Positions 7,182 to 23,004 of a stretch of DNA of 64,000 nt are shown here, piece after piece. Where the stretch lies: assembly GCA_019915015.1 (NCBI GenBank), contig JAHBBC010000016.1:310001-374000 (forward strand), given 5' to 3'. The stretch's first letter is position 1, and each line of letters begins with the position of its first letter. This stretch comes from Auriscalpium vulgare. Its lineage: Eukaryota > Basidiomycota > Agaricomycetes > Russulales > Auriscalpiaceae. The notes beneath the pieces are model-generated. The model was not told the origin of the DNA. It saw nothing but the letters and a program-made list of their open reading frames with translations, and did not search any database. Both the position numbers and the translations under genes were made by a program.

Positions 7182-8901
7182 AGGCACGGTACCGACCCCA
7201 TATACGGACGTCCTCGATCACCTTTGTAATTCACCCTCGTAGTACAGTAGTAGTAAGCAAAAATACACGTGAGGACGCGTCGACGCGTTGTGCGTATCAA
7301 CGGAGTCACGAGCCCCCTGTGCAGTACAGGAGCATGTCGACGGCCCTCATGCACCTCTATACCTATTACCCCCGCTCGCTGATACCCCTTTCCATGCCCG
7401 ACGCCGCACAGGACCGCTGGTCGTCCTTCGATGGTCAAAAGCTCATAGCAACGATTTTGAAGGCGGCTATCCCGGCCTGGCCAGATGGCCCACATGCCTG
7501 GCAAGTGGAGGCAACGGCACACATCCTGGAGGGCAGGAACGAGCTCGTCATCGCGCCGTGCGGGGAGGGAAAGACTGCGGTGATGTACCTGCATCTACTC
7601 GTCCGCAAGGCTTTGCGAGAAAATCCTACCCTCCCGCGACTGGGTGTTGACGTCACCGAGACGCCGGTTGTACTCACGGTAACACCACTGACGGCGCTCG
7701 CTGACAGCCAGGTGAGTTGTTGGTTCATGCAGAAAGTGTGCGTAGCGCTTACCTCCAGCTAGGTGGCCGAGATGAAGAGGGTCGGCATCAAAGCAATATC
7801 TCTCGATAGCCAGGAGATGTCCGACGCGCGGCTTCGAGGCGATGACCTGATGAAGGAAGTCAGAGCATGCGACTGGTCCGTTGTGCTCACCTCACCAGAG
7901 CGCCTTACGGATCCCGAGTTCGACAACGTCCTGCGGGACGACGAGTTTATCAAGAATCTTGCGCTGTACTGCGGAGACGAGGCACATACCATCGTCTCAT
8001 GGGGTCAGACTTTCCGAGAGTCCTACAGCGACATCAACCGTGTCATTGCGCGCATTCCTGCGCGTGTCCCGGTCCTGCTCATGACTGCAACACTCACTCT
8101 CCAGGCTGAGAAGGTGCTCTTGTCGCTGATGGGCTTTCGCGCGGGCGCATACCATACGATCAGGAGGCCAATTGAGCGGCCAAACATGCGGATCGTGTTC
8201 CGCACCTTGCACCATGGCCTCGGCAACAAGGAGTTCCCGGACCTAGCGTGGGTCGTTCAGCACCGGTACAAGACCCTGCTATACTGCCAAACTTACCGCA
8301 TGTGCTTCCGTCTTGCCTCATATCTGCAGAAACTACTGCCCCTCGAGACCCGCGAACGCCATGTTCGTGTCTACGACGCCCTCAGTGACGACTCGGGGCT
8401 CGGCGGAAACGAGAATGAAGCCGTCTTGGATGCCTTCGAGAACGACCCCGAGACATTCGTGATTGTCGCGACGTTGAAGTTTGGCATGGGCGTGGACGTG
8501 CGCGGCGTCCGGTTTGCTGCAAACGTTGGCATTGCGAAGACTGCGGCACAAGTTCATCAGCAAAACGGGCGCGCGGTGCGCAACAAGAAAGAGATCGGGG
8601 TAGGACTCACTTATGTTGAGATGGCGTACGTCAAGACTGTCCTCGAAGAGTACGAGAAGGCACATCAAGACGATGATGTTGACCTGGCGGAGCTGGACGT
8701 TCTTCCTGCGCCGACACCGGAGGAGCAACAAGTCCAGCGAAAGGCTGTCCAGACGCGCAAAACGAAAGACGATGATGAGGATGCGACGGGACGCAGCCAC
8801 CTTGAAGACCCCGACTTGCGCAGACTTGTCCTCTGCCACGCGAAGCAGCTCTGTCTCGTGGCAGAGTTCAACCGCTTGTTTGGAGGCCCAGATGTGTCTT
8901 C

Positions 8902-8905
8902 CCAC
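8902..8905. repeat. Target site duplication (left), CCAC
   Basis: CCAC directly before the LTR at 8906 matches CCAC directly after the other LTR at 23001-23004. A 4-bp duplication suits a Ty3/Gypsy integrase. Confidence 0.8.
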
Positions 8906-9620
8906 TGATGAGTAAACCCCCACTGCAGTCGCTGGAGGGGCCAAGGGTCGGGGTGAGGAGTGCTCTACTGCCTGGGGCGAGAGGAGAGAGGGTAAGAAGG
9001 AGCGTGAGAGCGCGCGACCGCTGGCGAAAACCCCCAACCACAGCGCGCTCTCTATCCTGGGGCGCGCTGCCGCTGCCGTCCTTCTCCTACTAGCCAGATA
9101 CCGTCAGTCCCGTCGCAAACGTAATACACATACCGTCAGTCCAGCACCGTGCCGTCGAGTCCCTCAGTCTCCCATTTCGCTCGCCGTGTTCGCCTAAGCC
9201 GTACTGACTTGGTGACTCTTCGCCGAGACTACCGCTTCCCCTGCCGCTGCTATCTTCGCCTTTCCCCTAGTGCATGGTTAGGTCCCGTCGCCTGGTTCGC
9301 CGAACGCTCGCTAGGGTCGTATCTCTTGTTTTGTGCTGTGAAGTCTCGGGTGTCGTCTCCCAAGGGTAGATTGCTTTGTCATCACTCGTACACGTACACT
9401 CTATGCTCTATCACCTCTCGATTCCCACGCTACCCTTCGTTCGGCGCCTACGACATCTCCCGCCTCCGGTCACTCTACCCTTCGCGAGTGGCAACCTTCC
9501 CTCAGTTCGCTGCGTTTCGCCGACCTTGGTTCTGTCCCGCCGCGCCCAGGGGAGAGTGTGGTGGTGTGGTTTGAGGTGTGCGGTCCGGTCTACGTGCCTG
9601 TAGCACGCGAGGTCCCATCA
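8906..9620 (-). repeat. 3' LTR of the Gypsy element
   Basis: 715 bp, TG...CA with 5-bp inverted ends (TGATG/CATCA), identical to 22286-23000. Contains TTCGCCGAA at 9296. Its first three plus-strand bases act as the stop codon of the truncated helicase frame. Confidence 0.97.
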
Positions 9621-9637
9621 TTCCTCCCCCCAACTGA
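9621..9637 (-). promoter_or_regulatory. Polypurine tract next to the 3' LTR
   Basis: On the element's sense strand this reads CAGTTGGGGGGAGGAA and abuts the LTR start, the expected place for the plus-strand primer. Near-identical copies lie at 11415, 12867 and 15400. Confidence 0.8.
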
Positions 9638-9785
9638 GCTACCGACTGTCCTCAGTCGGGTCCTCCTCGGAGACCCTCGGCGATGCTCGGCGAATCGCGC
9701 TCCTGAAAAGACCCCCTCCCTACCGCCGAAGGCCCTAGCTGCGCCATCCCCGACGCCGCTATCCCAAACACACCCAACCACCAAC

Positions 9786-11009
9786 ATGGCCTGGTCCCCT
9801 TCCATCCTTGCCTTCCAACTCCATACCTTACGCCAGCTCGCTGAAGTCCCGCGTCCCTTCGCGTTCGCCGAAGACTCCGCCGTGGCCCTGGCCGAGCTGG
9901 AGACTTGGGGGCGCCAGCTGGTGGCCCTCCTGGTACGTGAACCGCGTTGCTCGTCCGTTTTTATGCCCAAATCTGACCGTAATTGCCCACAGGAAAACTT
10001 GGACCGCGGCAGTTCGCCCAGCATCTTTGCCGCCGCCGAACGAGTTGCTATGCCTTTGTTTGAGCAGGCCATGTTGCTAGCGCCCACGACTACCGCCAGC
10101 TTCGCCGAATGGGCCCGGCCCCTCCTGCGGCTGTACTCCGCCTACCACGCCCCCATGCACCCCTGGGATGCCGTCCTGGGCCCCGACGAGGGGCTCCCCG
10201 TGCGCGAGCTCCTTTTTAAAGCCAGCATCGTTGAGGAGGATCTGTGGACCACATACCGCGCCGGGACCAGCGACGTCGAGTCTTATTTGGAGGAGCTACG
10301 TCAGTTCCACGCCACGTTCCCCGCCCATCGTCCCCGCGGAATGCAGACCTTCGTCGCCGACGTTCTCCGCCGTGTTTTGACGCAGGCTGCCATCGTCATC
10401 GACCAATCTGACGGGGGTAGCCGTGTTCTGCTAGCCACGGTCGACCAACACGCCTCCCTGACTACCCAGCTCAACGCGCGTGCTTCGCGTGGCCGTCACC
10501 TCGCCGGACTTGGTGGTCGTTTGTTGGGCGCCTTCGTGGCTGAGTCCACTAGCAGCTTGGATCGCTTCCATTCCGCCTTGCGCTCCTTGGTCGGTATCCG
10601 CGCCGCGTGGGCTGACGCCCCTTATCTCCTCGACCTCATTGCCGAGCCCGTCGTCATCCTGGAGCGTAGCTTTATAGCCTTCCTGGAACGCGGCCGCGTC
10701 TACCACCACTTCCTTCTTGGCCTGCCCGCGACGGCTGCTGTGGCCGATCCGTTCGCCGGCTCCGCGGTGGCTATGATGTTGCTCGGTGGCGATCTCTCCG
10801 ATTCCTCCGACGGAGAGGACGGGGCGTCGTACAGCCCCCTCGGCGTCACCTACAGCCCTAGCAACGGTTCCGCGGCGTCCAACGCTGAAGTCGCCCTAAC
10901 GATCGCCGAAGAGTTGGGGGTGGCACTAGATGATGAGGAGATACAGACGTCCTCGGTGGTGCTGACCGCATCCGCTGTGGCCGCTGCCCTTCGTGACGCG
11001 GCCGAGTAG
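9786..11009 (+). CDS. Antisense accessory protein A of the Gypsy element
   Basis: Unknown function. The ATG at 9786 (context CCAACATGG) opens a frame of 387 aa if the intron 9933-9992 (GTACGT..CCACAG, 60 nt) is removed. That intron has a length divisible by three and no stop, so an unspliced 407-aa form is also possible. The protein is mostly helical and rich in Ala/Leu, has no signal peptide, and ends in an acidic Ser/Asp stretch (GGDLSDSSDGEDG). The block FAAAERVAMPLFEQAMLLAP aligns with FLRVAAMVTVPVFEALFVVA of the next gene, and the first exons of both are exactly 49 codons. These two are therefore paralogues. It is transcribed opposite to gag-pol and does not overlap pol, so it needs its own promoter, perhaps antisense activity of the LTR 165 bp upstream. 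Confidence 0.75.
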   Translation: MAWSPSILAFQLHTLRQLAEVPRPFAFAEDSAVALAELETWGRQLVALLVREPRCSSVFMPKSDRNCPQENLDRGSSPSIFAAAERVAMPLFEQAMLLAPTTTASFAEWARPLLRLYSAYHAPMHPWDAVLGPDEGLPVRELLFKASIVEEDLWTTYRAGTSDVESYLEELRQFHATFPAHRPRGMQTFVADVLRRVLTQAAIVIDQSDGGSRVLLATVDQHASLTTQLNARASRGRHLAGLGGRLLGAFVAESTSSLDRFHSALRSLVGIRAAWADAPYLLDLIAEPVVILERSFIAFLERGRVYHHFLLGLPATAAVADPFAGSAVAMMLLGGDLSDSSDGEDGASYSPLGVTYSPSNGSAASNAEVALTIAEELGVALDDEEIQTSSVVLTASAVAAALRDAAE

Positions 11010-11414
11010 TAGATACTTCTGTACCGTTCTGCTCCTTCAAATGGCAATTGTGCGAGTCCTTATGACGCTCCTCGTTGACCCGGGGAGGCGGGGGTTCCTC
11101 CTCCTTCGCTACTGACTGGGCGAAGCTCGCGCGTGGTTCGGCGAACGTCCGCCCCACCCTGTCCTGTCGTTCTGATCCGGTCAACGCGGTCTTCGTGCTC
11201 TCGTCGCTCCTCCTCGCCTTTATCGCTGTTCCGGGTTCCTCATGGTGCTTCTCGCCGCGCCTGTGTCTTGTGTCTTTGATCCGCCCGCTAATCTCCCGAT
11301 AGGTGCCCTTTTTGCTCCGCTGATTTGCCTTTCCCGCTTGTAGTCCGCGGATCCTATTCGGCGGCGGTTCGCTGGCGAACGCCCTGCGATCGCCCTGCGC
11401 TCCTCCACGCGCGT
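11010..11414. other. Spacer between accessory genes A and B
   Basis: No ORF of note. Holds one exact TTCGGCGAA (11137-11145) and a looser copy near 11358-11380. Probably 3' flank of A and promoter of B. Confidence 0.5.
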
Positions 11415-11429
11415 CCTCCCCCCAACTGA
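11415..11429 (-). promoter_or_regulatory. Internal polypurine-tract-like copy 2
   Basis: CCTCCCCCCAACTGA on the plus strand, identical over 15 bases (16 with the preceding T) to the tract at 9623-9637. It lies 113 bp before the start codon of gene B. It could be an extra plus-strand priming site or a pyrimidine-rich core promoter element. Confidence 0.6.
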
Positions 11430-11541
11430 AATTTCGCCTGTCCGCAGGCGCACGCGGCCACCGGCCGCCGGCTCAGGAGTCCCGGCTGGCTGTAGCATAA
11501 AAGCTGACTGGGTCATCTGTCGCCGACGCTCCCCACGTACC

Positions 11542-12705
11542 ATGCCGTCGCCTTTTGTCCTGTCTGTCCGCGCCCTCGACTTGCTCACGCTTCTCCTCGC
11601 CCCGCCGTCGCTGATGCTAGAGGCTACTCCCGTGGTCGCCCTTGTCGAGGAGAGGGAAGCCTGGGGTCGCCGCGTGGCTGGTGCCATTGTATGTGAACTG
11701 CGCGGCCGCTCTTTACTGCCCAATACTGATTCTCCACAGGAGGGTGTCCGTGTTTCTGAGCGCCCATTGTTCCTGCGTGTGGCGGCCATGGTTACTGTCC
11801 CCGTGTTCGAGGCCCTCTTCGTTGTCGCCCCCCACGTTCGCGACACGTTCGCCGTATGGGGTGGGTCCCTCGTTTTGGCCTCGGCGCCCCCGGCGAACAG
11901 CCTCGCGCAAGATCCGCTCGGGCAGCCGCCCCTCGCCGCCCTTTCCTTCCGCGGAGTTTTGAGCCACGGGCGTGACGTTGTCCGCCTCGGCGAAGCTGTC
12001 TTGTTCAAGATGCTCGAGGGCGGCCAGCTCTCGCACGCAGCGTACCAGGGCGAACTCGGGGCGCTGTACCGCACCCGCGTACCCCTTCGCCAGAACCCTG
12101 GCTGTCTGGCAGTGCATGAGGGGATCGTCGACGCCATGTATGCGTGTTCCACCGCCCTTCGCGCCGAGCATGGCGGCTCCCAGATCATCCTGTCCGCGGC
12201 CTATCATGCCACCACCGCCGCCGCGGGCGGCACCGCCGTGGACCTCGCCGAAACCTTCCAACGCATCGCCGGCCCCATTTCAGCGTCCTTCCTGACGTAC
12301 GCCGAAGATTCCATTGTACACCTTCGCCTCGCTTTCGATTACGTCCAGCTCGTCCGCGGCTCCCGTACTTCCGACCTGGCATATGGCGTTGAGTTTGCCC
12401 GCGCGGCCGACCAGCTGGAAGCCACCGCGCGGGAACATATTCACGACCTTACGCTCTGGGCTGTCATGCTTGATCGTTTTCGCCTCGTCACGTCGTTGGC
12501 GCGTTCCCTTCGCGTGGCCGGGCTGCCGCCTTCGGTGACGGGCCACCCCGGCGAGGAGGACATCATTCTAGTCGGCGATACCGGTCGCGGGGGTCGCCCC
12601 GTGCACAACCCTATGGAGGAAGGCGCGTACGTCCCTCCTGCGCGCCGCGCGGGACGGTTCCGCCCTCGTTCGGCGAACGCCGGCGTGAACGCCTCCGCAA
12701 CGTAA
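11542..12705 (+). CDS. Antisense accessory protein B of the Gypsy element
   Basis: Paralogue of accessory protein A; function unknown. The ATG at 11542 (context GTACCATGC) opens 370 aa after removal of the intron 11689-11739 (GTATGT..CCACAG, 51 nt). As in A, exon 1 is 49 codons, the intron is phase 0, divisible by three and stop-free, and the intron starts share GTRYGTGAAC. Exon 1 ends with EEREAWGRRVAGAI, matching ELETWGRQLVALL in A. The rest is Ala-rich and helical with FLRVAAMVTVPVFEALFVVA near the start of exon 2 and a basic C-terminus (PPARRAGRFRPRS). No known domain recognised. The motif TTCGGCGAA lies within its last codons at 12669. A polyadenylation-like AATAAA follows at 12783. Confidence 0.75.
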   Translation: MPSPFVLSVRALDLLTLLLAPPSLMLEATPVVALVEEREAWGRRVAGAIVCELRGRSLLPNTDSPQEGVRVSERPLFLRVAAMVTVPVFEALFVVAPHVRDTFAVWGGSLVLASAPPANSLAQDPLGQPPLAALSFRGVLSHGRDVVRLGEAVLFKMLEGGQLSHAAYQGELGALYRTRVPLRQNPGCLAVHEGIVDAMYACSTALRAEHGGSQIILSAAYHATTAAAGGTAVDLAETFQRIAGPISASFLTYAEDSIVHLRLAFDYVQLVRGSRTSDLAYGVEFARAADQLEATAREHIHDLTLWAVMLDRFRLVTSLARSLRVAGLPPSVTGHPGEEDIILVGDTGRGGRPVHNPMEEGAYVPPARRAGRFRPRSANAGVNASAT

Positions 12706-12782
12706 ATGCGTCTGCGTAGCTGGGCGAAGACAGTAGAGGTTCTTGGTCGCCCAGCTATCCTGTGCGTTAGTAGTCGGAATGC

Positions 12783-12788
12783 AATAAA
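12783..12788 (+). terminator. Possible poly(A) signal for accessory gene B
   Basis: AATAAA 78 bp after the stop of gene B. It supports separate transcription of the antisense genes but fungal poly(A) signals are loose. Confidence 0.4.
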
Positions 12789-12866
12789 AGGTTGCTTGCG
12801 CGTTGATGGTATAGTGATCCCAGTGCATTTCCCCTTGTCGGCTACCATCGACCTCTTCCGCGCGAT

Positions 12867-12881
12867 CCGCCCCCCCACTGA
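12867..12881 (-). promoter_or_regulatory. Internal polypurine-tract-like copy 3 (diverged)
   Basis: CCGCCCCCCCACTGA on the plus strand, 13 of 15 identical to the tract at 9623. It lies 256 bp before the start of gene C. Confidence 0.45.
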
Positions 12882-13136
12882 GTGATGGGCGCTTCCGACT
12901 TGTAGGTTTTCTGGTGGCCGCGAGGCAGTGCTCCGAAGTAGCTGCGCGCGTACGTCATAGTGACTACACGCCTGCTGCCGAGCTAGGGCGCCTATACACG
13001 GAAGCAAAACTCGCGCGCTACGCACGGCCCAGCTCGTCTGTACGGCATCCGCGTCTCTTTTGTGCCACAAGTTCGCCGCGCTTCGCTTCTTGTTCTTGAC
13101 CTTCACTTCCCCTCCCTTTCCTCGCGCACGCTTTCC

Positions 13137-15208
13137 ATGGCCGACCCGTCCGCCCTGGCTGATTTCGCCCGCGACATCGTCGTCGCCGACCTGGCCTCCG
13201 TGGAGGCCGACCTCCCGGTGTCCGGTACAGTCGCTGAGCGGCAGGCTTGGTGCGTTCGCGCAGCCGTCGTTTCCGTGCGTGCCCCACTCTCCCCTTTTTC
13301 GTGTCCGCCTTGCTAACCTTCCCTTCAGGAGCGCCTGTGGGCATTACTGGGTCGCGCCGTCGCGCTGCCTCCCGGTGTGGCGGACCGCCTCCGCCTCTTG
13401 GACAGCGCGGTCGGCCGCCTCCGCCCCGCCGATCCCGCGCCCGCTCCGACGTTTGCGCCTCTCGCGCCGTTCCCGGCCCCTTCCCCTCCTGCTGCCAGCC
13501 CGGCACGTCCTACCCCCGCGTCCCGTAAGAAGAAGGTGCGTTCTCGTCATCTCACCCTTCTCACGTCCGCTAATCGCTCCGCCCCCAGCCCGTCAAGAAG
13601 CCGGCTCGCGTCGAGGTCGTGATCCCGGCACGCCCAGCGGTCCCCCCGCCCGTCGTCGCTGCGGCTCCTGGGGTCCCGCCTCCCGAGCCCGAGCCCGCAC
13701 CGCTCTCTCCACGCGACGAGCGAGCCCAACGGAACGCAGCCCGCAGGGCTCGCACCGCCGTTGTGCCCGCTCCGGTCATTCCTCCCCCCGCCGTTACCGC
13801 GCCCGTACCCGTGACTCCCCCTACACGCAAGCGAACGCGGAGTCAAGCCCGCAAGAAGACCCGCGCCCCGATCGACGCCGACGCCCTGTCCAGCGAGGTC
13901 GACGACGAGGGCGATCCCCTCTACCAAACTTCCCGCGTCCGTCCCACGTTCGTCGAGCGGTACGCCGGTGAACGTGTCCCGGTGCGTTCTTGCCTCCCGT
14001 CTCGTCCTCCTAGAGTCTGACCGCCCCTCCATCCTCTGTAGACCAGTCAGCGGTGCACGTACTGCCGTTATCACTTCGACGAGCCCGCGGACTGCTATTT
14101 CAAGCCCCACAGTCTCGCCAAGTGCGTCAAGTGCCGGGTGCACAAGAAGCACTGTGGTGGCGCTGTTCTGGAGGGCGGGTACGTACAGCGGCCCAAGCGC
14201 CGTACCCGCGCCGACTCGCCTTCGCCTGGACCTCGCCCACGCAAACGTGCGCGCGCCAACCCTCCGTCCTCGTTGCAAGTGGCGCACCCGCCGGGTTCGC
14301 CGTCGCTCCCCAACCACCGCGGGCTCTCCCCTGGCTCTCGCGTCGCGATGATGCCCTTCCCAGAGGCGCTAGCTTTCGCCGACCTTCCCAGTAGGTCACT
14401 TCTCCTCCTTTCTCCCTACCTGCCTTGACCCATTCCCGCAGGCGCATATGGCCCCGCCGCGCCGCTCCTCCGCGATATGGCGGCCGAAATCGAGACGGCT
14501 CAGGCTGAGTGGACGTCCCTTCTGGCGCCCATCTCGGACTTCGGCGAGACCCTTGGCGACCTCAATGGGCTCTATATCGAGCTGTCCGCTAACGCGCACG
14601 CCCTCCGTGTCCTGGCGCGCCGCCACGACCGCCTCCACCTCCGTGCGCGCCAGATCGCCGATATCCTCGATCGGTCCCCCACTCCCGCGTCTGAGCCGTC
14701 GCCCGTCATCCCCACTGCTCTCCGGGTAGCGCCTGGCGGCCGCATCCGCTCGACTCCTCCCCCGGTCGCTGGTCCCTCCGGCCCCCAGTCGCGGGCGCGT
14801 CTTGAAGACGAGCTGGAAGACCTCGCTCGCTCCCCTTCGCCTCCGCTCCTTGCCAGCCCGCGTGCGCTCATTCGCACGGCTTCGCCTCCCGTCGCTGGCC
14901 CTTCCCGCCTGCGTTCGCCCACTCCTGTCGCCGAATCCTACGACACCTGGGGAGGGTTCCAGGATTCCTGCGACGAGATCGCAATGGGGCCGTCCTTCTC
15001 CGACCCTCTCGCCCCGTCGCCCCTCCCCGAGTCCGTTGCCAGTCCCGCGCCCGACGCCGCTGTGGCCGATGATCACCCCGGCCTTTTCCTGCCCGGCGCG
15101 ACCGCTACCCCCGTCTTGGATGTCGGCGACATCGGCATCCTTCTGCCTGTTGCCGAGGATTCGGAGGGGGTGGAAGGGGAGGTCGCTGGCGTCATTGCCT
15201 TGGAGTAG
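13137..15208 (+). CDS. Antisense accessory protein C with a Zn(II)2Cys6-like cluster
   Basis: Probable DNA-binding protein encoded by the Gypsy element. Five exons keep one frame: 13137-13274, 13329-13535, 13589-13981, 14042-14390, 14442-15208, together 617 aa, all introns GT..AG and 51-60 nt. Exon 1 is 46 codons and phase 0, ending ERQAWCVRAAVVS, like the EREAWGRR end of gene B exon 1. Then comes a Pro/Ala-rich region with KRTRSQARKKTR (nuclear-localisation-like). The cysteines run CTYC, C, C, CVKC, C with spacing CX2C-X9-C-X9-CX2C-X6-C; fungal binuclear clusters have CX2C-X6-C-X5-12-CX2C-X6-8-C, so the second half fits and the first loop is longer. A basic patch RPRKRARA follows, then a helical region and an acidic C-terminus (EDSEGVEGEVAGVIALE) that could activate transcription. 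Role in regulating the element is inference. Confidence 0.78.
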
Positions 15209-15399
15209 TGGTGTTGCTTCGTTTCCGTTGTTTCCGGTTCCTCGTTCTTCTGTCTCTCTTCCTGTACCGTTCCCCTCTTGTTTCCTGCTGCCTTCTCCGT
15301 GTCCTTGTAGCCTTCTCTTTTTCCCCAAAATGTAAATAGCCTGTGTCTTCCGCTGTTCAATTGAGATCCCTCCTGTTCTTGACGCGTGAGCTCTGCCAA

Positions 15400-15415
15400 C
15401 CTCCCCCCAACTTGA
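15400..15415 (-). promoter_or_regulatory. Internal polypurine-tract-like copy 4
   Basis: CCTCCCCCCAACTTGA on the plus strand, the 9623 tract with one inserted T. It sits 22 bp beyond the pol stop, where a simple Gypsy element would have its polypurine tract before the LTR. Confidence 0.65.
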
Positions 15416-15436
15416 AGACAGAGCTGTCCTCAGCGC

Positions 15437-18400
15437 TTATTGATCGGCATGGTCGTCCACATCGCTCCCTACACTCGCGCGGTCGCTCCCGTCGGCGCCG
15501 TCTTCGCTGAGCGAACGTGACTCGCCTAGCTCGCCCACTACACTGGGAGCCAGGTCGCCAGACGTGAGTGCCACGACCCGGTCGATCGGCACATCTATGA
15601 AGTCGGGCAGCCTGGGCAGGTCCATGTGTGTACGGGCGAAGTAAGGGATGACGCGAAATTCGGCGACCGGGCGGTCAAAGATCGCGCCGTTCAAGTCGCA
15701 GAGGATGTACGGGCCGCCTTTTCGCCGAGCAACGACAATGAAGGGCCCATCGTACCGCGGGAGCATCTTCCGGTCCAGCGATTTCTCATACTGTGTGTAG
15801 CGGAGTAGGACAAGGTCGCCCCGTTGAAAGTTGTAGTCCTTGATGGACGTCTCGTGATCGCGTTCAAACTTCACGGCCGCGATTCGGCGAGCGTCATAAA
15901 CTTTCGAGTGCAACGTCCGCAGTTGTGTACGGCGTTTCTGCAAGGCGACCGCCCGTCTCGCGATGAGATCCGTCGTAGACAAGATTGAGTCTGGCGGCGG
16001 TAGGAGATACGTGGCTTCGACGATATCGAGTGGCAGCAACGGTTGCGTGCCCGTGGCCGCAAAGTACGGCGAACAGCCCATGCGCCGGCGCGTCGTGACC
16101 CTATCAGCCCAAAACACGGAGTGCGCCACATTCGCCCACTTAGTCGTGTCGCCGTCTGCTGCCTTATAGAGCGCCTGGCGAACGTCAAAGTGGGAGCGTT
16201 CGATGAGCCCATTGGAGCGCGAATTATAGCCGGAGATCCTGATGTGTCGCACGCCGTATTGGTCCTCCAAGGCCTTCAGCGCGGCCACGTACGGGGTTCC
16301 GTTGTCTGTGACGATTTCGCGGAGAGCACCCCACCGGCACAGGACATCTTCGAAGATCCATCTGGCGATGGACGTCGCGTTCTCCTGCCGGAGCATTCTC
16401 CATTCCGGAAAGTGAGACACGGAGCAGCGGCCTTGGACCAGATACTTGAAGCCTTTTGACGCCGGCATGTGCATGGTGTCGGCGTACATTTTGGCGAAGA
16501 GTCCCGCGGGCGTGGCGACTTTCGGCGGAATGAGGACGTGCTTGACTTGGCGCGTCTGGCAGATGCCACACGTCCTCACAAACCAGGCGACGTCCCGGTC
16601 CAGGAACGGCCACCAGACGCGCTCCAGTAATAGCATGCGCGTCGCGTAGACGCCGCGATGCCCGACGTCATTGTGACAGGCCTCCAACGCTGCCATCCTC
16701 TTGTCCTGGGGCAACACCAACTGATGACGTCCCTGGGGTTCCTTCTTGAAAAGGCTCGTGCCGTCCAAGAAAAATTCCGTGCAGTACCGCAAAAAGGTGG
16801 CGTATTCCTGATCGCTGAGGTTTGCCGGCCGCTGCAGCGTACGATGCCACTCGCGGACTTTATCAATGCGCGAGTCGGCATCCTTGCTGCGAGCGTCTCG
16901 CTCGACCTTATCATAAGAAACCGATACTACTTGGTTCAGCGAAAAGAAAGTGGCCACGGAGGTTCGAGTAACCCCACTCTGCTCCGTCGGCGAGCTTCGG
17001 CGAACTCCGGGCACGTAGACGTTGATGAGATGCATAAACCCGTACAGCGCGTCCACCCAGTCTTCAAAATGGTCGTCGTTGGGCTCGTCGGCGTCGCCTG
17101 GTTGGCGACGGCGACGCGATAACCCGTCTGGGCCGTGGAACAGGCCCGGGACGTGTACCAAGATAAAGTGAAACATTAAAATCGCTATGATCCACCTATT
17201 GATGCTCGCCGACGGCTCAATGTCAGGGTTGTCCAGCATGCCTTTTATGTATCTTGCATCGACTTCGACCACGAGGTTCCGTACCCCAATCAGGTAAAGC
17301 TTTAGGGCGCGTAGCGCCCTGAAGAGGCCGTATAGCTCCAATTTCGGCTGTGAGAACCGTGCTTCCCGGTCGTTAAGGGCTATGGAACCAAATCGTGCGT
17401 AATGTCGCTTCTTGCGGCTCTTTGGCTCGTCGTGATCCGCCTGGCAGAGCAAGAACCCCACCGCGATCGGCGAAGTATCCACGGCAAGAATGACCGCGTC
17501 GCCCGAATGGTAGTCGATAGGCTGTAGCGCCGGGGACTCTAGCACCGCAGCCTTTAGGTCTTCCATGGCTGCCAACTGCTCCGCCCCAAATTCGAAAGGG
17601 ACATCCTTTCGCGTGAGGTGCGTCAACGCGTGTGCGCGATGGGCAAAATGTTGGATGAATACGCGTAGGACCCCAACCGTCCCCAGGAATGCGCGCACGT
17701 CTGAAAGGTCTCGACACGGCCCCCAGTTCACGATTTTGGACACACGGGCCTCGTCGGGTACGCGGCCTTCCGCCGTGCAGCGGTGGCCGACCACCATGAT
17801 CTCCGGCGCACAGAGCACCGTTTTCCAGCCCGAGAACGTTCCACCCGAGTACTTCATCCGTTGTACCACCCGGTTGAGGTTCTGAAAGTGTTCCCACACG
17901 AATCGGCGAATACCCTCATTGTCGGCGATAGTCTCGTAGTTTCCTTCCTCGTCTTGGTACCTACTCGCCGGACCTTTGACCGGTACGTCGTCGATGAATG
18001 GTACCGTGATGTGTGGTATTTCCGCCTGCAGGATGTGGGTGACGTCGTCGTGAAATATCGGCACGGAATTCGTCCATCCCATAGGCAAGGTGACCAGTCG
18101 TAGGGCGCCGTACGGGGTCTGGAACGTAGTCAGGTCCCGTGACGCGACGTCCAGGGTCCGTTCGTCGTAGCCCACATACAGGTCCAACATCCCTCCGCAC
18201 GCTCTCCCAGCAAACTGTTCGGCGAGCTGGTCCGTGAACGGCGGAACTCCCGAGTGCGCAATTGTCACCGCGTTGAGGGGCTCGAGGCTGTGTACTAAAC
18301 GCAAACTCGTGCCGTCTTTCTTGACCACACAGAACCATTTGGAACGGTACGAGGAGTTGGATGGTTCGTAAACGTTCGCCGCTAGCTTTCGGCGAATCTG

Positions 18401-19120
18401 TTCGCAGACCTGATCGTAGATGCCAGGCGGGATTGGGATGTTGCGCTGCACCCACAGCGTATGGGGAACTACGGGAATGGTAACCGGCGGAAAGAAGTCC
18501 TCACGGAAGTGCCCTCGCTCTGTATCGTCCCATGCAAACGCCTCGTTGTGCACTCCCATGAAGTGGTGCATCAGCTTGCGCTCCTCCGGCCACAGGAAGT
18601 CCGGTCCGTGGACCACGTCGAACTGGGCTCTCCTCTCAGCCGTATACCGGCCTTCAGCTTTAAAGTCCGGGGGCTGGGTCGGCAGTACCGGTATGTCCGC
18701 CAGCGGGTCGCCAGCGATATCGCGCACTATCCGGAACTGCTGGGGCAGGTCGGCAAGAACGGGTTTCACTTTGAGATGTACTGGCTTGTACTTCTTTTTA
18801 GTTGCCGCAAAGACGGCCTTCGCTTTCTCGTTCTGTACCAAGGGTTCGGCGCCGAGGGTCTTGTCCGAACTCGCGTGCGAAGGCAGCTCAGCCGCTGCGA
18901 AATAGAATAAAGGATCCGCGGGTATATGGACGACATCGACCGGCGACGTCTTAAACAATCGTGGGGTATCCCCCGGCAAATCACAGAAAGATAAATAGGT
19001 TGCACGTAACTCGTTTGCTCCCGTCGAGGAGTCGAAGGGGACCAGGTTTTCAATCTTAAGCTCTTCAGTGTCGCCGGGCCGGAACGAGACCACTAGCGCC
19101 ACCTCCGCCTGATCCACCAA
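15437..19120 (-). CDS. pol: Gypsy Pol polyprotein (reverse transcriptase, RNase H, integrase)
   Basis: Copies element RNA into DNA and inserts it. The frame is open from 19120 (first possible start-like codon TTG, no ATG nearby) and continues upstream overlapping the end of gag in the -1 frame, so it is probably made as a Gag-Pol fusion. Reverse transcriptase has RSKWFCVVKKDGTSLRLVH and the catalytic FIDD at about residue 375 (YxDD in most relatives). RNase H starts near 546 with AVDTSP. Integrase has the HHCC finger (H..H in NDVGHRGVYATR, CGICQTRQ), then catalytic D in ADTM (about 880), D in TDNG (about 939) and E in IERSH (about 972). A GPY/F-like module (YDGPFIVVARRKGGPY) lies near 1125. 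No chromodomain seen. The C-terminus is acidic. No stop or missing catalytic residue. Confidence 0.93.
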   Translation of the reverse strand: MVDQAEVALVVSFRPGDTEELKIENLVPFDSSTGANELRATYLSFCDLPGDTPRLFKTSPVDVVHIPADPLFYFAAAELPSHASSDKTLGAEPLVQNEKAKAVFAATKKKYKPVHLKVKPVLADLPQQFRIVRDIAGDPLADIPVLPTQPPDFKAEGRYTAERRAQFDVVHGPDFLWPEERKLMHHFMGVHNEAFAWDDTERGHFREDFFPPVTIPVVPHTLWVQRNIPIPPGIYDQVCEQIRRKLAANVYEPSNSSYRSKWFCVVKKDGTSLRLVHSLEPLNAVTIAHSGVPPFTDQLAEQFAGRACGGMLDLYVGYDERTLDVASRDLTTFQTPYGALRLVTLPMGWTNSVPIFHDDVTHILQAEIPHITVPFIDDVPVKGPASRYQDEEGNYETIADNEGIRRFVWEHFQNLNRVVQRMKYSGGTFSGWKTVLCAPEIMVVGHRCTAEGRVPDEARVSKIVNWGPCRDLSDVRAFLGTVGVLRVFIQHFAHRAHALTHLTRKDVPFEFGAEQLAAMEDLKAAVLESPALQPIDYHSGDAVILAVDTSPIAVGFLLCQADHDEPKSRKKRHYARFGSIALNDREARFSQPKLELYGLFRALRALKLYLIGVRNLVVEVDARYIKGMLDNPDIEPSASINRWIIAILMFHFILVHVPGLFHGPDGLSRRRRQPGDADEPNDDHFEDWVDALYGFMHLINVYVPGVRRSSPTEQSGVTRTSVATFFSLNQVVSVSYDKVERDARSKDADSRIDKVREWHRTLQRPANLSDQEYATFLRYCTEFFLDGTSLFKKEPQGRHQLVLPQDKRMAALEACHNDVGHRGVYATRMLLLERVWWPFLDRDVAWFVRTCGICQTRQVKHVLIPPKVATPAGLFAKMYADTMHMPASKGFKYLVQGRCSVSHFPEWRMLRQENATSIARWIFEDVLCRWGALREIVTDNGTPYVAALKALEDQYGVRHIRISGYNSRSNGLIERSHFDVRQALYKAADGDTTKWANVAHSVFWADRVTTRRRMGCSPYFAATGTQPLLPLDIVEATYLLPPPDSILSTTDLIARRAVALQKRRTQLRTLHSKVYDARRIAAVKFERDHETSIKDYNFQRGDLVLLRYTQYEKSLDRKMLPRYDGPFIVVARRKGGPYILCDLNGAIFDRPVAEFRVIPYFARTHMDLPRLPDFIDVPIDRVVALTSGDLAPSVVGELGESRSLSEDGADGSDRASVGSDVDDHADQ

Positions 19121-19128
19121 CGACCCCT

Positions 19129-22100
19129 CTAGTTCCGAAAACCCGCAGCCTTTGTTTCTTGTTCCACAATCCGCCGCGATCCCCGTTCGATAGTGGGGAC
19201 GGTCGCTGTCTCCTGAGTATTGGGGTCTGTGATCGTGATGGTCTGACGCTCATCCGGAAAGTTGCGGACCACGCTGCCCGTCAATACGTCAAACGGCCTC
19301 CCCAAGAGGATGTCATATGCCGGTGAGCGAATGACGTGTATCTGAACGTAGAGCGTGATTTCGCCGAGTTTCAGCGCTACGTTGCGCGCCAAACCCAGCG
19401 ACTTGTCGACGGACCCGTTTGCCGACAGCATATCTAGCGTGATGGTGGGGTCGTAAGCGAGCCCTAAAAAGTGGCATGTATCTTCGGACATGGAGATGAC
19501 CTGCGATCCTGGATCCAGGATCGCCTCTATGTGCGCTTGGTTGTCTACCAAAGGTAGTACTGCCCGTAGCGCCGACGATTCTTTTGCCACGATCAATGGT
19601 TCCGACGGCCGCTCGGTCGCGTTGAGGAACTGCGATAAAACCGGGTCCGGCAAGATGAGGGCGCCGGCGGGCGGCGCCGCCGTCTGGAAGCCCATCGCCT
19701 GCATGAACGATGCCGGCATATGCGAAGATATTCCCCGGACACGGTCCCTCTCGGATTCGCGCTCACTGCTGCCGTCGTCTAAACCGCACAGGTCGCCGAA
19801 GGCTTCGGCGAATTCATCCTGTCCTGCCTGTAGCTCCGTTTGCATCACCGCCACCGGCTCTTGTGCCGCTCGGGCCGGTGCGGTAGGGATACGCCGAGGG
19901 GTGACAGCGTGTCTTATCTGCGCCCGTACTTCTGGGGCCAACGACAGTAACTCCCGTTGCGTCAGCGTAACTGATGCTCCCATTGCCCGCTCGTACACCG
20001 TGGATGCTATGCCCTCCTCGTGTACCGGCGTGTCCTTGACGTAGGCCGCGGTTGCCTTCTTATTCCTTTCTGCGCGCTGTTCCTCCTCCGTGGCCACGTA
20101 CGTGGCATCCGGTACTAGCGCGAACGGGTGTATAGGCTCCGTGTCTAACTCCGGTTCTTCTTCGTGCCCCGCGACCGCCTCGCTGGATGGCTTGGCGTTC
20201 TCCGGTTCGGCGAATGCGACTTTCTTTGGCTTCGCTGTATACTTGGATGGCAAAATGACCACTTCTGGGACCATGCGCCTCGTCTTAACCCGCTCTCCGG
20301 GTAGGGGACCTATGGGTTTGGCTAGCTCCCCGTTCGCCAAGGCTCGCTCCCTTCTAGCTTTCTCCTCTGCCCTCTTGTCTCGCAGATTCATCAAGACTTG
20401 CACCTCCTGATGTAGTTGTGCGATGCGTTCCTCATCCGTGAGCTGGGGTATCATCTGGATCATCCCTGCCACCGGTTGGTCGCGTGCAGGCCTCAGCGGG
20501 TAGTCGGTAACCGCGATCGGCCCCGACGTGGCTAACATCATGTTCTCGGTCACCGCGTTCCCGAGTCTCGCTGCGACTTCGGGCCTCAACGCCGCCGGGT
20601 TCGCTCGATAGTAATCATCGACAATCTGCTGTAGAGTTCCTTTGCCCCAGGGTATCTCCAGACCGCTGGCGAGCGTCACTTGGCCACGGTTGTTTCGGCG
20701 AACCTTCCCGTCGGCGATGCTCTCCTGGAGCACCATGCACTCGCGCATGAAGTGGTCCGGCCCCCCACAGAACGTGCACCGCGCACCGCCTTGTCCTGGC
20801 CCTGGGCGCGGCCGATCGTACCCCATGTTGGCCGCCTGCATCGGGCCCGCGGGTCCGCGCGTGAAGTTCGGCGCACCGTTGCCGTTGCCAGCTAGTGCCT
20901 CAGCTCTCCCGGCCTGGTACGCTCTCGCTATCTGTTCGGTCGCCTTCTCCAATAGCGCCCCAAACTGCTCGACCTTTACTACCGGTTCGGCGGCCTTCGC
21001 TGGCGGCAGCTGGCTCTCCACCGCCGCGGTTACTGACGGCATATCCGTGTGTGAGCGCGGCGTCGTCGTGGTCCCGTGCAGCAGGTACTCGGCGGCCTCA
21101 AAGACCTTCGCCATTGGATAAGGGTCATCGCGATCATGGTCCGGCTCCTTGTACTGCAACCGCTGTTCCACCCTGTCCTGCAGCGACCTGGGAAGCCCTC
21201 GGAGGAATGCGAAGTCTTGATCCCTCTCCGATACGCGGCCCCTCTTCTTCAAGAATTCGGAGATTGCGTAGAACTCCCGGTAGTAGTGGCTCAGGTCACC
21301 AAGAGAAGTAAGCCCCCCGTTTGCGTACTGGGCCACCAGCCTATCGAGGTCCCCTAGGACGTACTTCCGTTCACCGTCCGCGCCCGGGTAGAGGGCTATG
21401 ATCGCCTTCTCGAAATCGGCGAACTTCTTGCCCTTCTCAAACTCCGGACGTATCACCCACTGATCCGCTGTGAGGACGTCGAGGTAACGGACCGCATGCG
21501 CCTTCATCTCTTCATCGTTCGTAATCCCAGCTTGCGTCAACAGGTGCTTGAGTTCGGCGAAGTAACGGGGTAGCTCGCGGGGACGGCTCCCATCGAACGT
21601 GGGGGCGCGCCTATCACCGCGCGTAGGCATCGGGGTTGTCATCCTGGTGGGTAACGGCTGGTTTACGGGGGAACTGGGTGCGTCTGAAAGTGGGGAAGAG
21701 GCAGCCGACCCGCTTCGCTGCCGCTCGCCTGATAAACCTCCCTGCGACCCGCGGTTCGGCGAAACTGGTCTATTTCGCCGTGACCCTGGATTTGATGGTT
21801 GCCGTTCCCCGCGCCCATCAATGATGTCGGCGACTTCGGGCTCCAAATCGTCCGCCTCCGCGACTCGTCGTGAGCGCGGTGTCTCGACTGGGCCAATCCT
21901 GAGCCTGGCCGGGCTCTCGCCCATGCGCAACAGTTCCCTATACAGCATTAGCGACTCTACCCACCCGTCTTGCTCCGCTGGGCGACCATCTGGCCCGTCG
22001 TGTCTTGGCAAGGGAGGGCCCTGACGCGACACTTCGACCTCGTCGACCCCTCCACGGCTTCCCCTGCCTGCGTTGGTCGGGTCGAGTGCAGCGTCGTAAC

Positions 22101-22242
22101 CAGCAACGTTCCCGTCTTGTTCCTCGTCTTCGAAGTGGCCTGGCATTTCGGCGAATTGAGCCACGGCATATGCGTCCGTGCGTGAGGCTCGCAACGGCTG
22201 TCGCCTCGTGGGCTCCAACACTACTCTGGCCTTCGGACCCAT
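19129..22242 (-). CDS. gag: Gypsy Gag-protease polyprotein
   Basis: Structural polyprotein that packages element RNA and includes the protease. The ATG at 22242 is the first in frame and lies 44 bp inside the 5' LTR; the protein has 1037 aa. Acidic, Pro/Arg-rich N-terminus, then a retrotransposon-gag domain (about 216-390, starting TFDGSRPRELPRYFAELK and including LRGLPRSLQDRVEQRL). A CCHC zinc knuckle CTFCGGPDHFMREC is near residue 485. The C-terminal third carries a retropepsin-like domain with ILDPGSQVISMS near 907 and YDILLGRPF after it. The catalytic triplet reads DPG, where most retropepsins have DTG or DSG; from memory DPG occurs in related mushroom elements. The gag stop TAG (19131-19129) is preceded by a -1 slip site. 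Confidence 0.9.
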   Translation of the reverse strand: MGPKARVVLEPTRRQPLRASRTDAYAVAQFAEMPGHFEDEEQDGNVAGYDAALDPTNAGRGSRGGVDEVEVSRQGPPLPRHDGPDGRPAEQDGWVESLMLYRELLRMGESPARLRIGPVETPRSRRVAEADDLEPEVADIIDGRGERQPSNPGSRRNRPVSPNRGSQGGLSGERQRSGSAASSPLSDAPSSPVNQPLPTRMTTPMPTRGDRRAPTFDGSRPRELPRYFAELKHLLTQAGITNDEEMKAHAVRYLDVLTADQWVIRPEFEKGKKFADFEKAIIALYPGADGERKYVLGDLDRLVAQYANGGLTSLGDLSHYYREFYAISEFLKKRGRVSERDQDFAFLRGLPRSLQDRVEQRLQYKEPDHDRDDPYPMAKVFEAAEYLLHGTTTTPRSHTDMPSVTAAVESQLPPAKAAEPVVKVEQFGALLEKATEQIARAYQAGRAEALAGNGNGAPNFTRGPAGPMQAANMGYDRPRPGPGQGGARCTFCGGPDHFMRECMVLQESIADGKVRRNNRGQVTLASGLEIPWGKGTLQQIVDDYYRANPAALRPEVAARLGNAVTENMMLATSGPIAVTDYPLRPARDQPVAGMIQMIPQLTDEERIAQLHQEVQVLMNLRDKRAEEKARRERALANGELAKPIGPLPGERVKTRRMVPEVVILPSKYTAKPKKVAFAEPENAKPSSEAVAGHEEEPELDTEPIHPFALVPDATYVATEEEQRAERNKKATAAYVKDTPVHEEGIASTVYERAMGASVTLTQRELLSLAPEVRAQIRHAVTPRRIPTAPARAAQEPVAVMQTELQAGQDEFAEAFGDLCGLDDGSSERESERDRVRGISSHMPASFMQAMGFQTAAPPAGALILPDPVLSQFLNATERPSEPLIVAKESSALRAVLPLVDNQAHIEAILDPGSQVISMSEDTCHFLGLAYDPTITLDMLSANGSVDKSLGLARNVALKLGEITLYVQIHVIRSPAYDILLGRPFDVLTGSVVRNFPDERQTITITDPNTQETATVPTIERGSRRIVEQETKAAGFRN
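19138..19144 (-). promoter_or_regulatory. Candidate -1 ribosomal frameshift site, G GGT TTT
   Basis: Sense-strand GGGTTTT in gag phase (GCG GGT TTT CGG AAC TAG) fits the X XXY YYZ rule and lies two codons before the gag stop. A -1 slip enters the open pol frame without meeting a stop. I could not assess a downstream RNA structure. Confidence 0.6.
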
Positions 22243-22263
22243 TGTGAATTTGAGCAGAGAGAT

Positions 22264-22281
22264 CCCTCGCGGTGGGCTCCA
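22264..22281 (-). other. Candidate tRNA primer-binding site
   Basis: Four bases inside the 5' LTR the sense strand reads TGGAGCCCACCGCGAGGG, starting with the TGG expected opposite a tRNA CCA end. I could not assign the tRNA; complementarity would imply a U discriminator base. Confidence 0.45.
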
Positions 22282-22285
22282 CAAA

Positions 22286-23000
22286 TGATGAGTAAACCCC
22301 CACTGCAGTCGCTGGAGGGGCCAAGGGTCGGGGTGAGGAGTGCTCTACTGCCTGGGGCGAGAGGAGAGAGGGTAAGAAGGAGCGTGAGAGCGCGCGACCG
22401 CTGGCGAAAACCCCCAACCACAGCGCGCTCTCTATCCTGGGGCGCGCTGCCGCTGCCGTCCTTCTCCTACTAGCCAGATACCGTCAGTCCCGTCGCAAAC
22501 GTAATACACATACCGTCAGTCCAGCACCGTGCCGTCGAGTCCCTCAGTCTCCCATTTCGCTCGCCGTGTTCGCCTAAGCCGTACTGACTTGGTGACTCTT
22601 CGCCGAGACTACCGCTTCCCCTGCCGCTGCTATCTTCGCCTTTCCCCTAGTGCATGGTTAGGTCCCGTCGCCTGGTTCGCCGAACGCTCGCTAGGGTCGT
22701 ATCTCTTGTTTTGTGCTGTGAAGTCTCGGGTGTCGTCTCCCAAGGGTAGATTGCTTTGTCATCACTCGTACACGTACACTCTATGCTCTATCACCTCTCG
22801 ATTCCCACGCTACCCTTCGTTCGGCGCCTACGACATCTCCCGCCTCCGGTCACTCTACCCTTCGCGAGTGGCAACCTTCCCTCAGTTCGCTGCGTTTCGC
22901 CGACCTTGGTTCTGTCCCGCCGCGCCCAGGGGAGAGTGTGGTGGTGTGGTTTGAGGTGTGCGGTCCGGTCTACGTGCCTGTAGCACGCGAGGTCCCATCA
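22286..23000 (-). repeat. 5' LTR of the Gypsy element
   Basis: 715 bp, identical to 8906-9620, next to gag and the candidate primer-binding site; presumed promoter for the gag-pol transcript. Confidence 0.97.
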
Positions 23001-23004
23001 CCAC
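23001..23004. repeat. Target site duplication (right), CCAC
   Basis: Matches 8902-8905. With one copy removed the helicase reading frame resumes at 23005 with GAA. Confidence 0.8.

Follow-up and report, generated by a model that had tools for sequence, protein, structure and literature searches.

A probable Gypsy lineage in Auriscalpium vulgare with a three-gene antisense array, repeated polypurine tract and stem-loop units, and gene exchange at short shared islands

A Gypsy retrotransposon of Auriscalpium vulgare carries three intact, intron-bearing genes antisense to gag-pol, and what appears to be its own 3' polypurine tract (PPT) recurs beside and between these genes. We consider it probable that this element belongs to a Gypsy lineage with a three-gene antisense array, PPT-stem-loop units and exchange of genes at short shared islands. 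Here we document the anatomy of the element, the conservation and covariation of its units, purifying selection on its genes, mosaicism among its copies and the positions at which the mosaics change over. The window, i.e. the whole stretch of DNA that was analysed, comprises 64,000 nt (assembly GCA_019915015.1, contig JAHBBC010000016.1, positions 310,001-374,000 of the forward strand).

Anatomy of the element

The element has two long terminal repeats (LTRs), and CCAC at both of its flanks constitutes a target-site duplication (Table 1). Its domain order is that of Ty3/Gypsy elements: the protease ends gag, and RT_RNaseH precedes Integrase_H2C2 in pol. The reverse transcriptase domain proper gave no Pfam match at E <= 1 in a scan of the pol ORF and was assigned within pol by position. 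As part of the explanation that we favour as a whole, the copy in the window is probably a recent insertion. Rfam gave zero matches at the gathering score within 8800-23100. The original prediction that three intact, intron-bearing plus-strand genes separate pol from the 3' LTR in this minus-strand Gypsy element is borne out by our exon model, and we refer to these genes as A, B and C.

Table 1. Features of the element, in coordinates of the window.
Feature	Position	Strand	Remarks
3' LTR	8906..9620	- (element sense = minus)	715/715 identity to 22286-23000
Tract at LTR border	9623..9637	+	exact; complement of 3' PPT
Stem-loop, LTR-border unit	9642..9659	+	CCGACTG-TCCT-CAGTCGG
Gene A, 387 aa	9786..11009	+	exons 9786-9932, 9993-11009; exon model
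Tract between A and B	11415..11429	+	exact
Stem-loop, A/B unit	11435..11450	+	CGCCTG-TCCG-CAGGCG
Gene B, 370 aa	11542..12705	+	exons 11542-11688, 11740-12705; exon model; paralogue of A
Degenerate tract between B and C	12867..12881	+	13/15; alpha only; without stem-loop
Gene C, 617 aa	13137..15208	+	5 exons; exon model
Pol-side tract (second PPT)	15400..15414	+	13/15 ungapped; one inserted base if gapped
Short stem-loop, pol-side unit	15423..15434	+	GCTG-TCCT-CAGC
pol ORF, 1227 aa	15437..19120	-	RT RNase H (RT_RNaseH), Integrase_H2C2
gag-protease ORF, 1051 aa	19129..22284	-	Asp_protease_2, E 8e-7
5' LTR	22286..23000	-	

The PPT-stem-loop unit

The tract copies were predicted to be exact at the LTR border and between A and B, to match at 13 of 15 positions between B and C, and to be nearly exact beside pol. 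All four were recovered, and they are the only sites with <=2 mismatches in the 64-kb window, where 0.13 would be expected. Genome-wide we counted 166 exact copies of the tract and none of the reversed pattern, which served as a control. The tract is present in at least three element families, named alpha (which includes the copy in the window), beta and gamma, and its position supports its identification as the 3' PPT of the element. The first description, in which every gene has a tract on either side, holds in the window and is not general. Between B and C, the scanned beta and gamma copies have nothing that corresponds to the B/C tract, which is also missing (<=2 mismatches) from L013, one of the five alpha copies fetched from outside the window; tracts between genes are absent altogether from the gamma copies scanned. 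The pol-side tract is kept in beta and gamma, so that three families have an internal duplicate of the 3' PPT, the mark of a central-PPT element. Internal copies are conserved family-wide.

The tract belongs to a unit of ~38 bp made up of the tract, a short spacer and a stem-loop with covarying outer pairs, and nearly all tract copies adjoin such a stem-loop. In each of the three families, the full copies that were fetched have both the LTR-border unit and the unit after pol; the A/B unit is restricted to alpha and beta. The composite unit gave 254 matches, with gaps of 5-9 bases before the CTG core, and its reversed control 0 (a pattern with the gap fixed at 7 bases matched nowhere, nor did its control). 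Across 15 distinct rows, 94.4% of the stem cells are paired with 13 double changes, and the covariation score of 0.363 compares with 0.084 +- 0.032 for the controls (0/500). The unit also stands out in comparisons between families. From the LTR to pol, alpha copy L009 and gamma copy L029+L010 align only in the unit (37-38 bp) and in pol (blastn, E 1e-5), the alpha LTR unit and A/B unit each matching the gamma pol-side unit. Likewise, 18 of the 23 12-mers shared by these two copies fall inside the two gamma units, and identity flanking the unit is mostly 1-4/10.

Covariation of the stem-loops beside the tracts suggests a structured signal adjoining the PPT. Folded as sense RNA, five of eight units have the stem-loop within the minimum-energy structure; the three LTR-border units favour another pairing without it, the centroid structures likewise lack it in the pol-side units of alpha and gamma, and z-scores of four of the eight lie between -0.8 and +0.2. 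The antisense strand folded as single-stranded DNA forms the stem-loop in 8/8 units. We also considered a double-stranded DNA operator; a single fixed site is made less likely by the arms, which vary from unit to unit within one element. No match to the composite unit was found in viral contigs.

Antisense genes

The A, B and C positions are occupied in alpha, beta and gamma alike, gamma C being assigned chiefly by position and cysteine pattern. Once spliced according to the exon model, the three genes of the window contain zero internal stops. In alpha, the introns of A and B have lengths that are multiples of three and are free of stops. They are probably spliced, a reading that rests on their conserved position, their GT-AG ends and the beta (61 nt) and gamma (64 nt) counterparts of the A intron, which shift the frame. 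A and B are homologous along their full length (probability 98.7, E 2e-16 over 280 columns), which makes them paralogues and not genes captured separately; A/C and B/C comparisons remained at noise level. Omega was 0.06 for A (against the diverged copy L034), 0.07 for B and 0.15-0.37 for C exons in pairs with dS > 0.5, indicating purifying selection on all three genes where measurable.

Pfam gave no match for A, B or C, nor did NCBIfam for A and C, the two that were scanned. A PDB profile search with A returned a designed helical bundle (E 0.018) and a cytochrome P450 (0.38), both of which we take as chance; B returned none up to E 1. The predicted structure of A exon 2 has a mean pLDDT of 37.6, and viral contigs held no relative of A or of pol. 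Gene C contains a six-cysteine cluster, C-x2-C-x9-C-x9-C-x2-C-x6-C. The Zn2Cys6 zinc cluster of fungi has the pattern C-x2-C-x6-C-x(5,12)-C-x2-C-x(6,8)-C, and we rejected this assignment for C as the loop preceding the third cysteine has 8-10 residues instead of 6 and Pfam gave no match.

Gene exchange among copies

Among 40 beta copies of B, near-identical genes (type B1) are paired with five types of C, and type C5 occurs with both B1 and B2. The contrast within single pairs is sharp: between L012 and L026, dS is 0.005 in A, 0.004 in B, 0.71-1.0 in C exons and 0.062 in pol, whereas L012 and L017 are mostly 95-100% identical over their whole length. Recombinants have themselves multiplied, with 10 copies of B1-C5-P3 and 9 of B1-C1-P1. 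Tree tests on five loci gave uneven results: the C tree is rejected by A data (AU p 0.009) and barely so by B data (0.0499), and the AU value of 2e-11 for A data on the B tree, where the log-likelihoods differ by 0.004, clearly cannot be relied on. These sequence comparisons support the view that the accessory genes move between elements as blocks, or cassettes.

The positions of the change-overs bear on the proposal that templates are switched near the tract. Comparison of the five C types places the beta change-over at L012 position 4220, 48 bp upstream of the C ATG, and this sharpest change-over lies in a block without a tract. A second one, between L037 and L038, falls no more than about 60 bp from the pol-side tract, with identities of 20/20, 17/20 and 13/20 in the 20-base blocks 55, 35 and 15 bases before it. 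Just past the A/B unit the change is weaker and gradual, from about 92% to 75% identity. The proposal is supported insofar as genes do move and change-overs lie near the pol-side tract and, more weakly, just past the A/B unit; the sharpest one does not support it.

Origin of the array and alternative readings

In the lineage that we propose, the tract would serve as the plus-strand priming site and would be inherited with the stem-loop as one unit. The ancestral element may have ended in pol-unit-LTR, and an antisense gene with a second unit may then have been inserted between the original unit and the LTR. The unit directly after pol is a putative internal PPT, and alpha and beta would have added the third between A and B in a tandem duplication that gave rise to these two genes and took in a unit; C would share at most its first exon with them. 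The genes would be transcribed antisense from their own promoters, their introns surviving because they do not appear as introns in the sense genomic RNA, and their proteins may have a nuclear regulatory role. Exchange may occur by reverse transcriptase switching between co-packaged RNAs at short shared islands, namely the A/B and pol-side units and a block of ~140 bp ahead of C, and internal tracts may prime internally. The proposed origin step has no direct trace, since there is no clear LTR relic beside the internal tracts (in seven of eight comparisons >=63/300 shuffles were as good, in the best 16/300). In alpha, the sequence past the A/B stem-loop resembles that past the LTR stem-loop (3/300 shuffles as good), which is expected as A and B are paralogous; beta has no such likeness. 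A bolder version, in which the unit is a modular joint that primes extra plus-strand segments on a 14-kb element, stalls reverse transcriptase, sets the exchange sites and yields reassortable antisense regulators, is speculative and we hold it rather doubtful.

One explanation in the original prediction was that gene cassettes had been gained step by step through template switching near the tract. The flanking of the window genes by tract copies and the exchange of C up to the vicinity of the pol-side tract fit this idea, but the paralogy of A and B and the occupation of all three gene positions in all three families do not. Elements with zero cassettes, or with one or two and a clean join at a tract, were absent among the matches listed. 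In seven deletion copies that have lost genes (L016, L022, L030, L031, L032, L033+L020 and L024) no join is at a tract; all break elsewhere, at short direct repeats, where the blastn pieces overlap by 7-24 bp. We therefore regard stepwise gain of unrelated cassettes as quite improbable. The lack of Pfam, NCBIfam and convincing PDB matches noted above might suggest that the block came into one Gypsy copy as a mobile or viral insertion of its own. This is refuted by counts: the block sits at the same place in gamma copies, in 40 beta copies with a B gene and in 9 alpha copies that are nearly identical, so we give this idea practically no weight.

Two further readings concern function and route. 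The motif was alternatively taken for a promoter, and the unit could act as promoter or 5' UTR element of the antisense genes, duplicated because each of them requires one, its PPT likeness being incidental or a double use. It lies 127-163 bp upstream of the A and B ATG in alpha and beta and 126 bp before gamma A, and its stem-loop forms more readily on the antisense strand. Against this, the pol-side unit has no plus-strand gene downstream in any of the three families, beta C, gamma B and gamma C have no preceding tract, and one copy always abuts the LTR, the place required of a PPT. A promoter-only function is thereby weakened and the promoter reading as a whole seems unlikely to us, while dual use of the tract as PPT and antisense promoter is compatible with these findings. 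As to route, DNA recombination or gene conversion among integrated copies is a real though lesser possibility, as many near-identical copies in one genome would permit ectopic conversion. The recurrence of change-overs at the same short islands across many copies, and the multiplication of recombinants expected for exchange before integration, point instead to the template switching that we prefer, though either route can give both.

Comparison with known elements

What antisense genes do in Gypsy elements, and where they come from, are posed as open questions in passages of PMC7264820 and PMC11963269. One genome with dozens of copies, in which genes are exchanged at defined joints, makes the origin and spread of such ORFs testable, and one of these joints adjoins the putative internal priming site. 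Our literature search found neither duplicated units nor exchanged cassettes reported for Gypsy elements, and no description of a stem-loop next to a PPT. Antisense ORFs as such are known from the plant Retand, Grande and RIRE2 elements, according to sections of PMC7264820 and PMC11963269, and Grande gene23 is described as having its own promoter and a nuclear product (in the part of PMC7264820 on this gene). The present element differs from these in having three genes, two of them paralogous, together with repeated PPT-stem-loop units. The antisense protein of Retand contains TRP28 (PF04195), which our Pfam scan did not find in A, B or C. The main text of PMC11963269 uses "PPT" and "polypurine" once each, for the LTR-adjoining tract, and "stem-loop" and "hairpin" not at all.

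Boty/BcGypsy1 of Botrytis (Zhao et al. 2011, as cited in PMC8365987 and PMC7264820) is also a fungal Gypsy element, in which the antisense gene brtn separates pol from the 3' LTR; the passages on it in the two citing papers name this one antisense gene and mention no tract repeats, as against three genes here. HTLV-1 HBZ and other antisense retroviral genes (named in PMC11963269) are likewise antisense to gag-pol and thought to be regulatory, and an antisense promoter is described for HTLV in a section of PMC7264820. We found no sequence kinship with these genes (no Pfam match), and the genes here are three, intron-bearing and putative regulators. Retroviruses and Ty1 have a second PPT inside the element, the central PPT (PMC5371799, PMC3227589), as does the present element, whose second copy instead lies after pol with a covarying stem-loop and is a putative priming site. 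In Tf1/Tf2 and Tosmo of fission yeasts, mosaics are ascribed to recombination among diverged copies, as here, and conserved nucleotides just upstream of the PPT are a further likeness (as treated in sections of PMC10085805); there it is gag and U3 that differ, while here antisense genes are exchanged, near PPT units and at an intergenic block.

The window element and its genes

We confirmed three plus-strand genes, here called A, B and C, between pol and the 3' LTR of the minus-strand Gypsy element, as the original prediction had placed them. The complement of the 3' polypurine tract (PPT), CCTCCCCCCAACTGA, referred to below as the tract, was likewise found at all four predicted places, two exact and two at 13/15; no further site with two or fewer mismatches occurs in the 64-kb window, where 0.13 would be expected. 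Pfam recognized RNase H and integrase domains in pol and a protease at the end of the gag ORF; the RT domain proper is placed by position, Pfam giving no match for it at E <= 1. The element is inserted in a helicase-like ORF whose frame is open across the insertion site once the flanks are joined with one CCAC.

Features of the element and its surroundings in the window
Feature	Position	Strand	Details
Gypsy element	8906-23000	minus	LTRs identical 715/715; CCAC duplication
Genes A, B, C	between pol stop 15437 and 3' LTR	plus	A 387 aa; B 370 aa; C 617 aa with five exons
Tract, LTR-border unit	9623		exact
Tract, A/B unit	11415		exact
Tract, B/C	12867		13/15
Tract, pol-side unit	15400		13/15
Host flanks, helicase-like ORF	7763-8905 and 23001-23300		Helicase_C E 1e-10; DEAD 3e-6
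Neighbouring ORF	24877-26583	minus	DUF6589, E 1e-55

Families in the host genome

The exact tract occurs 166 times in the host assembly (51.6 Mb, 96 contigs) and the reversed pattern not at all. Judging by its gene types, the host is probably an agaricomycete. Among the matches listed, 100 tract places formed 71 groups, 29 of them pairs 1.65-1.79 kb apart. Sequence was taken for 20 of the 71 groups, and 19 matched the window element by blastn. The exception, L022, is gamma-like, with gene A and a pol-side unit and no pol match, and adjoins a large tandem-repeat region. Once later pieces were added, the copies fell into three families: alpha, to which the window element belongs (five copies, with 99.7% identity where they align), beta (pol about 73% identical to that of the window element; 68.6% over a longer stretch in the copy L024) and gamma (pol identity around 70%, with individual pieces reaching 77%).

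A search with protein A gave at least 117 matching stretches (107 of 170 candidates scored) with identities of ~100% in alpha, 35% in beta and 30% in gamma. Protein B gave 77 stretches of alpha and beta types and none assignable to gamma, which has a B-like gene at the equivalent place, 18% identical to alpha B. Beta C was recognized by tblastn; gamma C reached just E 0.005 in one gamma stretch, and its probable identity is assigned from position, a six-cysteine cluster and a helical-looking stretch after the cluster, judged by eye.

Three-member profiles of A and B align over 280 columns (probability 98.7, E 2e-16), and in all three families both genes begin with an exon of 49 codons and then a phase-0 intron; A and B are paralogues. 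C resembles neither significantly (best E 0.1). All three genes are under purifying selection: omega is 0.06 for A (alpha against the copy L034, 338 codons, dS 0.89), 0.07 for B (beta copies L012 and L036, 324 codons, dS 0.91) and 0.15-0.37 for C exons, where beta pairs of dS above 0.5 were used; pairs of near-zero dS were set aside, their omega being unstable and as high as 1.5. None of the three has a Pfam match, and a scan of A and C gave no NCBIfam match. Since C carries a cysteine cluster, C-x2-C-x(8-10)-C-x9-C-x2-C-x6-C, and basic stretches, it is likely to have a nuclear, nucleic-acid-binding role.

A conserved tract-stem-loop unit

At a distance of 2-8 bases, every window tract except the B/C tract is followed by a stem-loop whose CTG...CAG core hardly varies and whose loop has four bases; beta and gamma tracts carry it likewise. 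The composite pattern of this ~38-bp unit occurs 254 times in the genome, against 0 for the reversed control. Between alpha and gamma, from LTR to pol, the unit is the sole DNA outside pol aligned by blastn, the alpha LTR-border and A/B units each pairing with the gamma pol-side unit, and identity beyond the unit edges is mostly 1-4 of 10. In 15 distinct rows of 18 given, covering the three families and one diverged alpha copy, 94.4% of stem cells pair and both sides have changed in 13; covariation scores 0.363, compared with 0.084 +- 0.032 among shuffles (0/500) and no more than 0.105 on sliding. The count of stem pair types is unremarkable (182/500 shuffles), and an earlier set of 10 rows gave the same picture. 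The covariation is strong evidence for the stem, yet its score is no probability, since the shuffles leave relatedness in.

As single-stranded DNA of the pyrimidine strand, all eight units have the stem-loop in their minimum-energy structure (z -1.35 to -5.02); as sense RNA five do, and the sense-RNA centroids of the alpha and gamma pol-side units lack it. In sense RNA of the three LTR-border units (e.g. 9621-9665) the 5' arm of the stem pairs with a conserved TCAGTT next to a G run; this pairing is absent from the minimum-energy folds of the five internal units and present in the gamma pol-side centroid. Terminal and internal tracts may possibly differ in their predicted sense-RNA fold.

LTR-border and pol-side units were present in the full copies examined of all three families, and the A/B unit in alpha and beta. 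Of 22 gamma pol-side units within 100 composite matches listed, 13 have an LTR unit 5.28-5.30 kb away and 4 have one at some different distance; the other 5 lack an exact partner within 7 kb. In gamma no tract occurs between genes even with up to 3 mismatches allowed, nor does one occur between B and C in the beta copies scanned. The original prediction that every gene has a tract copy on each side thus holds in the window and fails as a general statement; because the A/B unit is missing in gamma and the B/C tract in beta and gamma, the four-fold pattern is the fullest case and not the rule.

Loss and exchange of genes

Copies lacking a gene cassette with a clean join at a tract, which would have supported the original prediction, were looked for, and all seven deletion copies join elsewhere. 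One deletion, from within A to within C, is common to the gamma copies L016, L022 and L031; L030 shows a related yet distinct pair of losses, and L032 and L033+L020 have others. The deletion in L024 runs from within B exon 1 into pol, so that C is gone entirely, along with most of B and the 3' portion of pol; with 751-bp end repeats 99.87% identical, this copy is a recently moved non-autonomous derivative. The deletion joins overlap by 7-24 bp, which points to losses via short direct repeats. No element with zero genes was found among the matches listed.

Beta copies differ in how their genes are combined. In 100-base blocks, identity between L012 and L026 is 96-100% from a little upstream of A to the end of B (one upstream block 92%), mostly 50-80% in C, and in pol about 88-96% to ~8500 of L012 and 98-100% beyond; the corresponding dS is 0.005 in A, 0.004 in B, 0.71-1.0 across C exons and 0.062 in pol. 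The control pair L012/L017 is mostly 95-100% identical, its lowest blocks being at 91% on the LTR side and, within a repeat of C, one at 63%. L036 is close to L026 in C (dS 0.00-0.02) and has another B (dS 0.89).

By DNA searches, 40 B, 39 C and 40 pol places were assigned to sequence types (B1-B2, C1-C5, P1-P4), with two partial second pieces dropped and 40 of 163 pol candidates scored. A C partner was found for 37 B copies and both partners for 35: B1-C1-P1 in 9, B1-C2-P2 in 3, B1-C2-P3 in 1, B1-C3-P4 in 1, B1-C4-P2 in 3, B1-C5-P3 in 10 and B2-C5-P3 in 8. Two further B copies have no pol match and three B2 copies neither C nor pol match. P2 and P3 are close (97%), so firm pol types are just P1, P2/P3 and P4. 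The pairing distance was widened for one beta copy (G000:C12:727438-741366), where B and C lie about 12 kb apart and something is inserted between them.

Nine loci representing the five C types compared place the B/C change-over at position 4220 of L012, 48 bp upstream of the C start codon; a ~140-bp block common to B2 copies too precedes it, and beta has no tract at this point. L037 (C2) and L038 (C4) diverge through most of C and its trailer. Three blocks just before the pol-side tract match at 20/20, 17/20 and 13/20; from the fifth tract base on, 20/20 is followed by 17/20 and then pol at 98.7% (375/380). The 20/20 block before the tract is kept at 19/20 between L037 and L012, copies with different pol, and so is conserved in its own right, which places the C/pol change-over within about 60 bp of the tract. 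This block, ~35-55 bases on the C side of the tract, is perhaps a 3'-end signal of C. L042 and L043 show the same two states again. In L036 a less sharp A/B change-over falls just after the A/B unit (~92% before, 75% after).

Topology tests with five loci reject both the A and the B tree on C data (log-likelihood differences 197 and 1594; AU p 5e-29 and 7e-9, respectively); the C tree is rejected on A data (AU p 0.009) and barely on B data (0.0499). Since the AU value of A data against the B tree is unreliable (2e-11 at a log-likelihood difference of 0.004), the case for exchange rests on the identity shifts.

Proposed mechanism and known systems

Most likely, the tract would serve as a plus-strand primer site, in terminal and internal copies alike, and the unit would have been duplicated during acquisition and doubling of the antisense genes. 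The best argument is the pol-side unit, which is conserved with compensatory stem changes while flanking non-coding DNA between families no longer aligns, and which no plus-strand gene follows. Template switching is established for retroviruses, and gene exchange near the units and at the pre-C block fits it. Introns may survive the RNA stage because the genes are antisense.

Repeated PPT-stem-loop units or antisense-gene exchange appeared in no paper listed, as judged by title and abstract start, in a search largely of literature outside subscription. For the Tf/Tosmo elements of fission yeast, inter-element recombination, chromosomal or during reverse transcription, has been proposed (PMC10085805). 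Earlier examples exist of antisense ORFs between pol and the 3' LTR, in plants and Boty (PMC7264820, PMC11963269, PMC8365987), and of central PPTs, in retroviruses and Ty1 (PMC5371799, PMC3227589).
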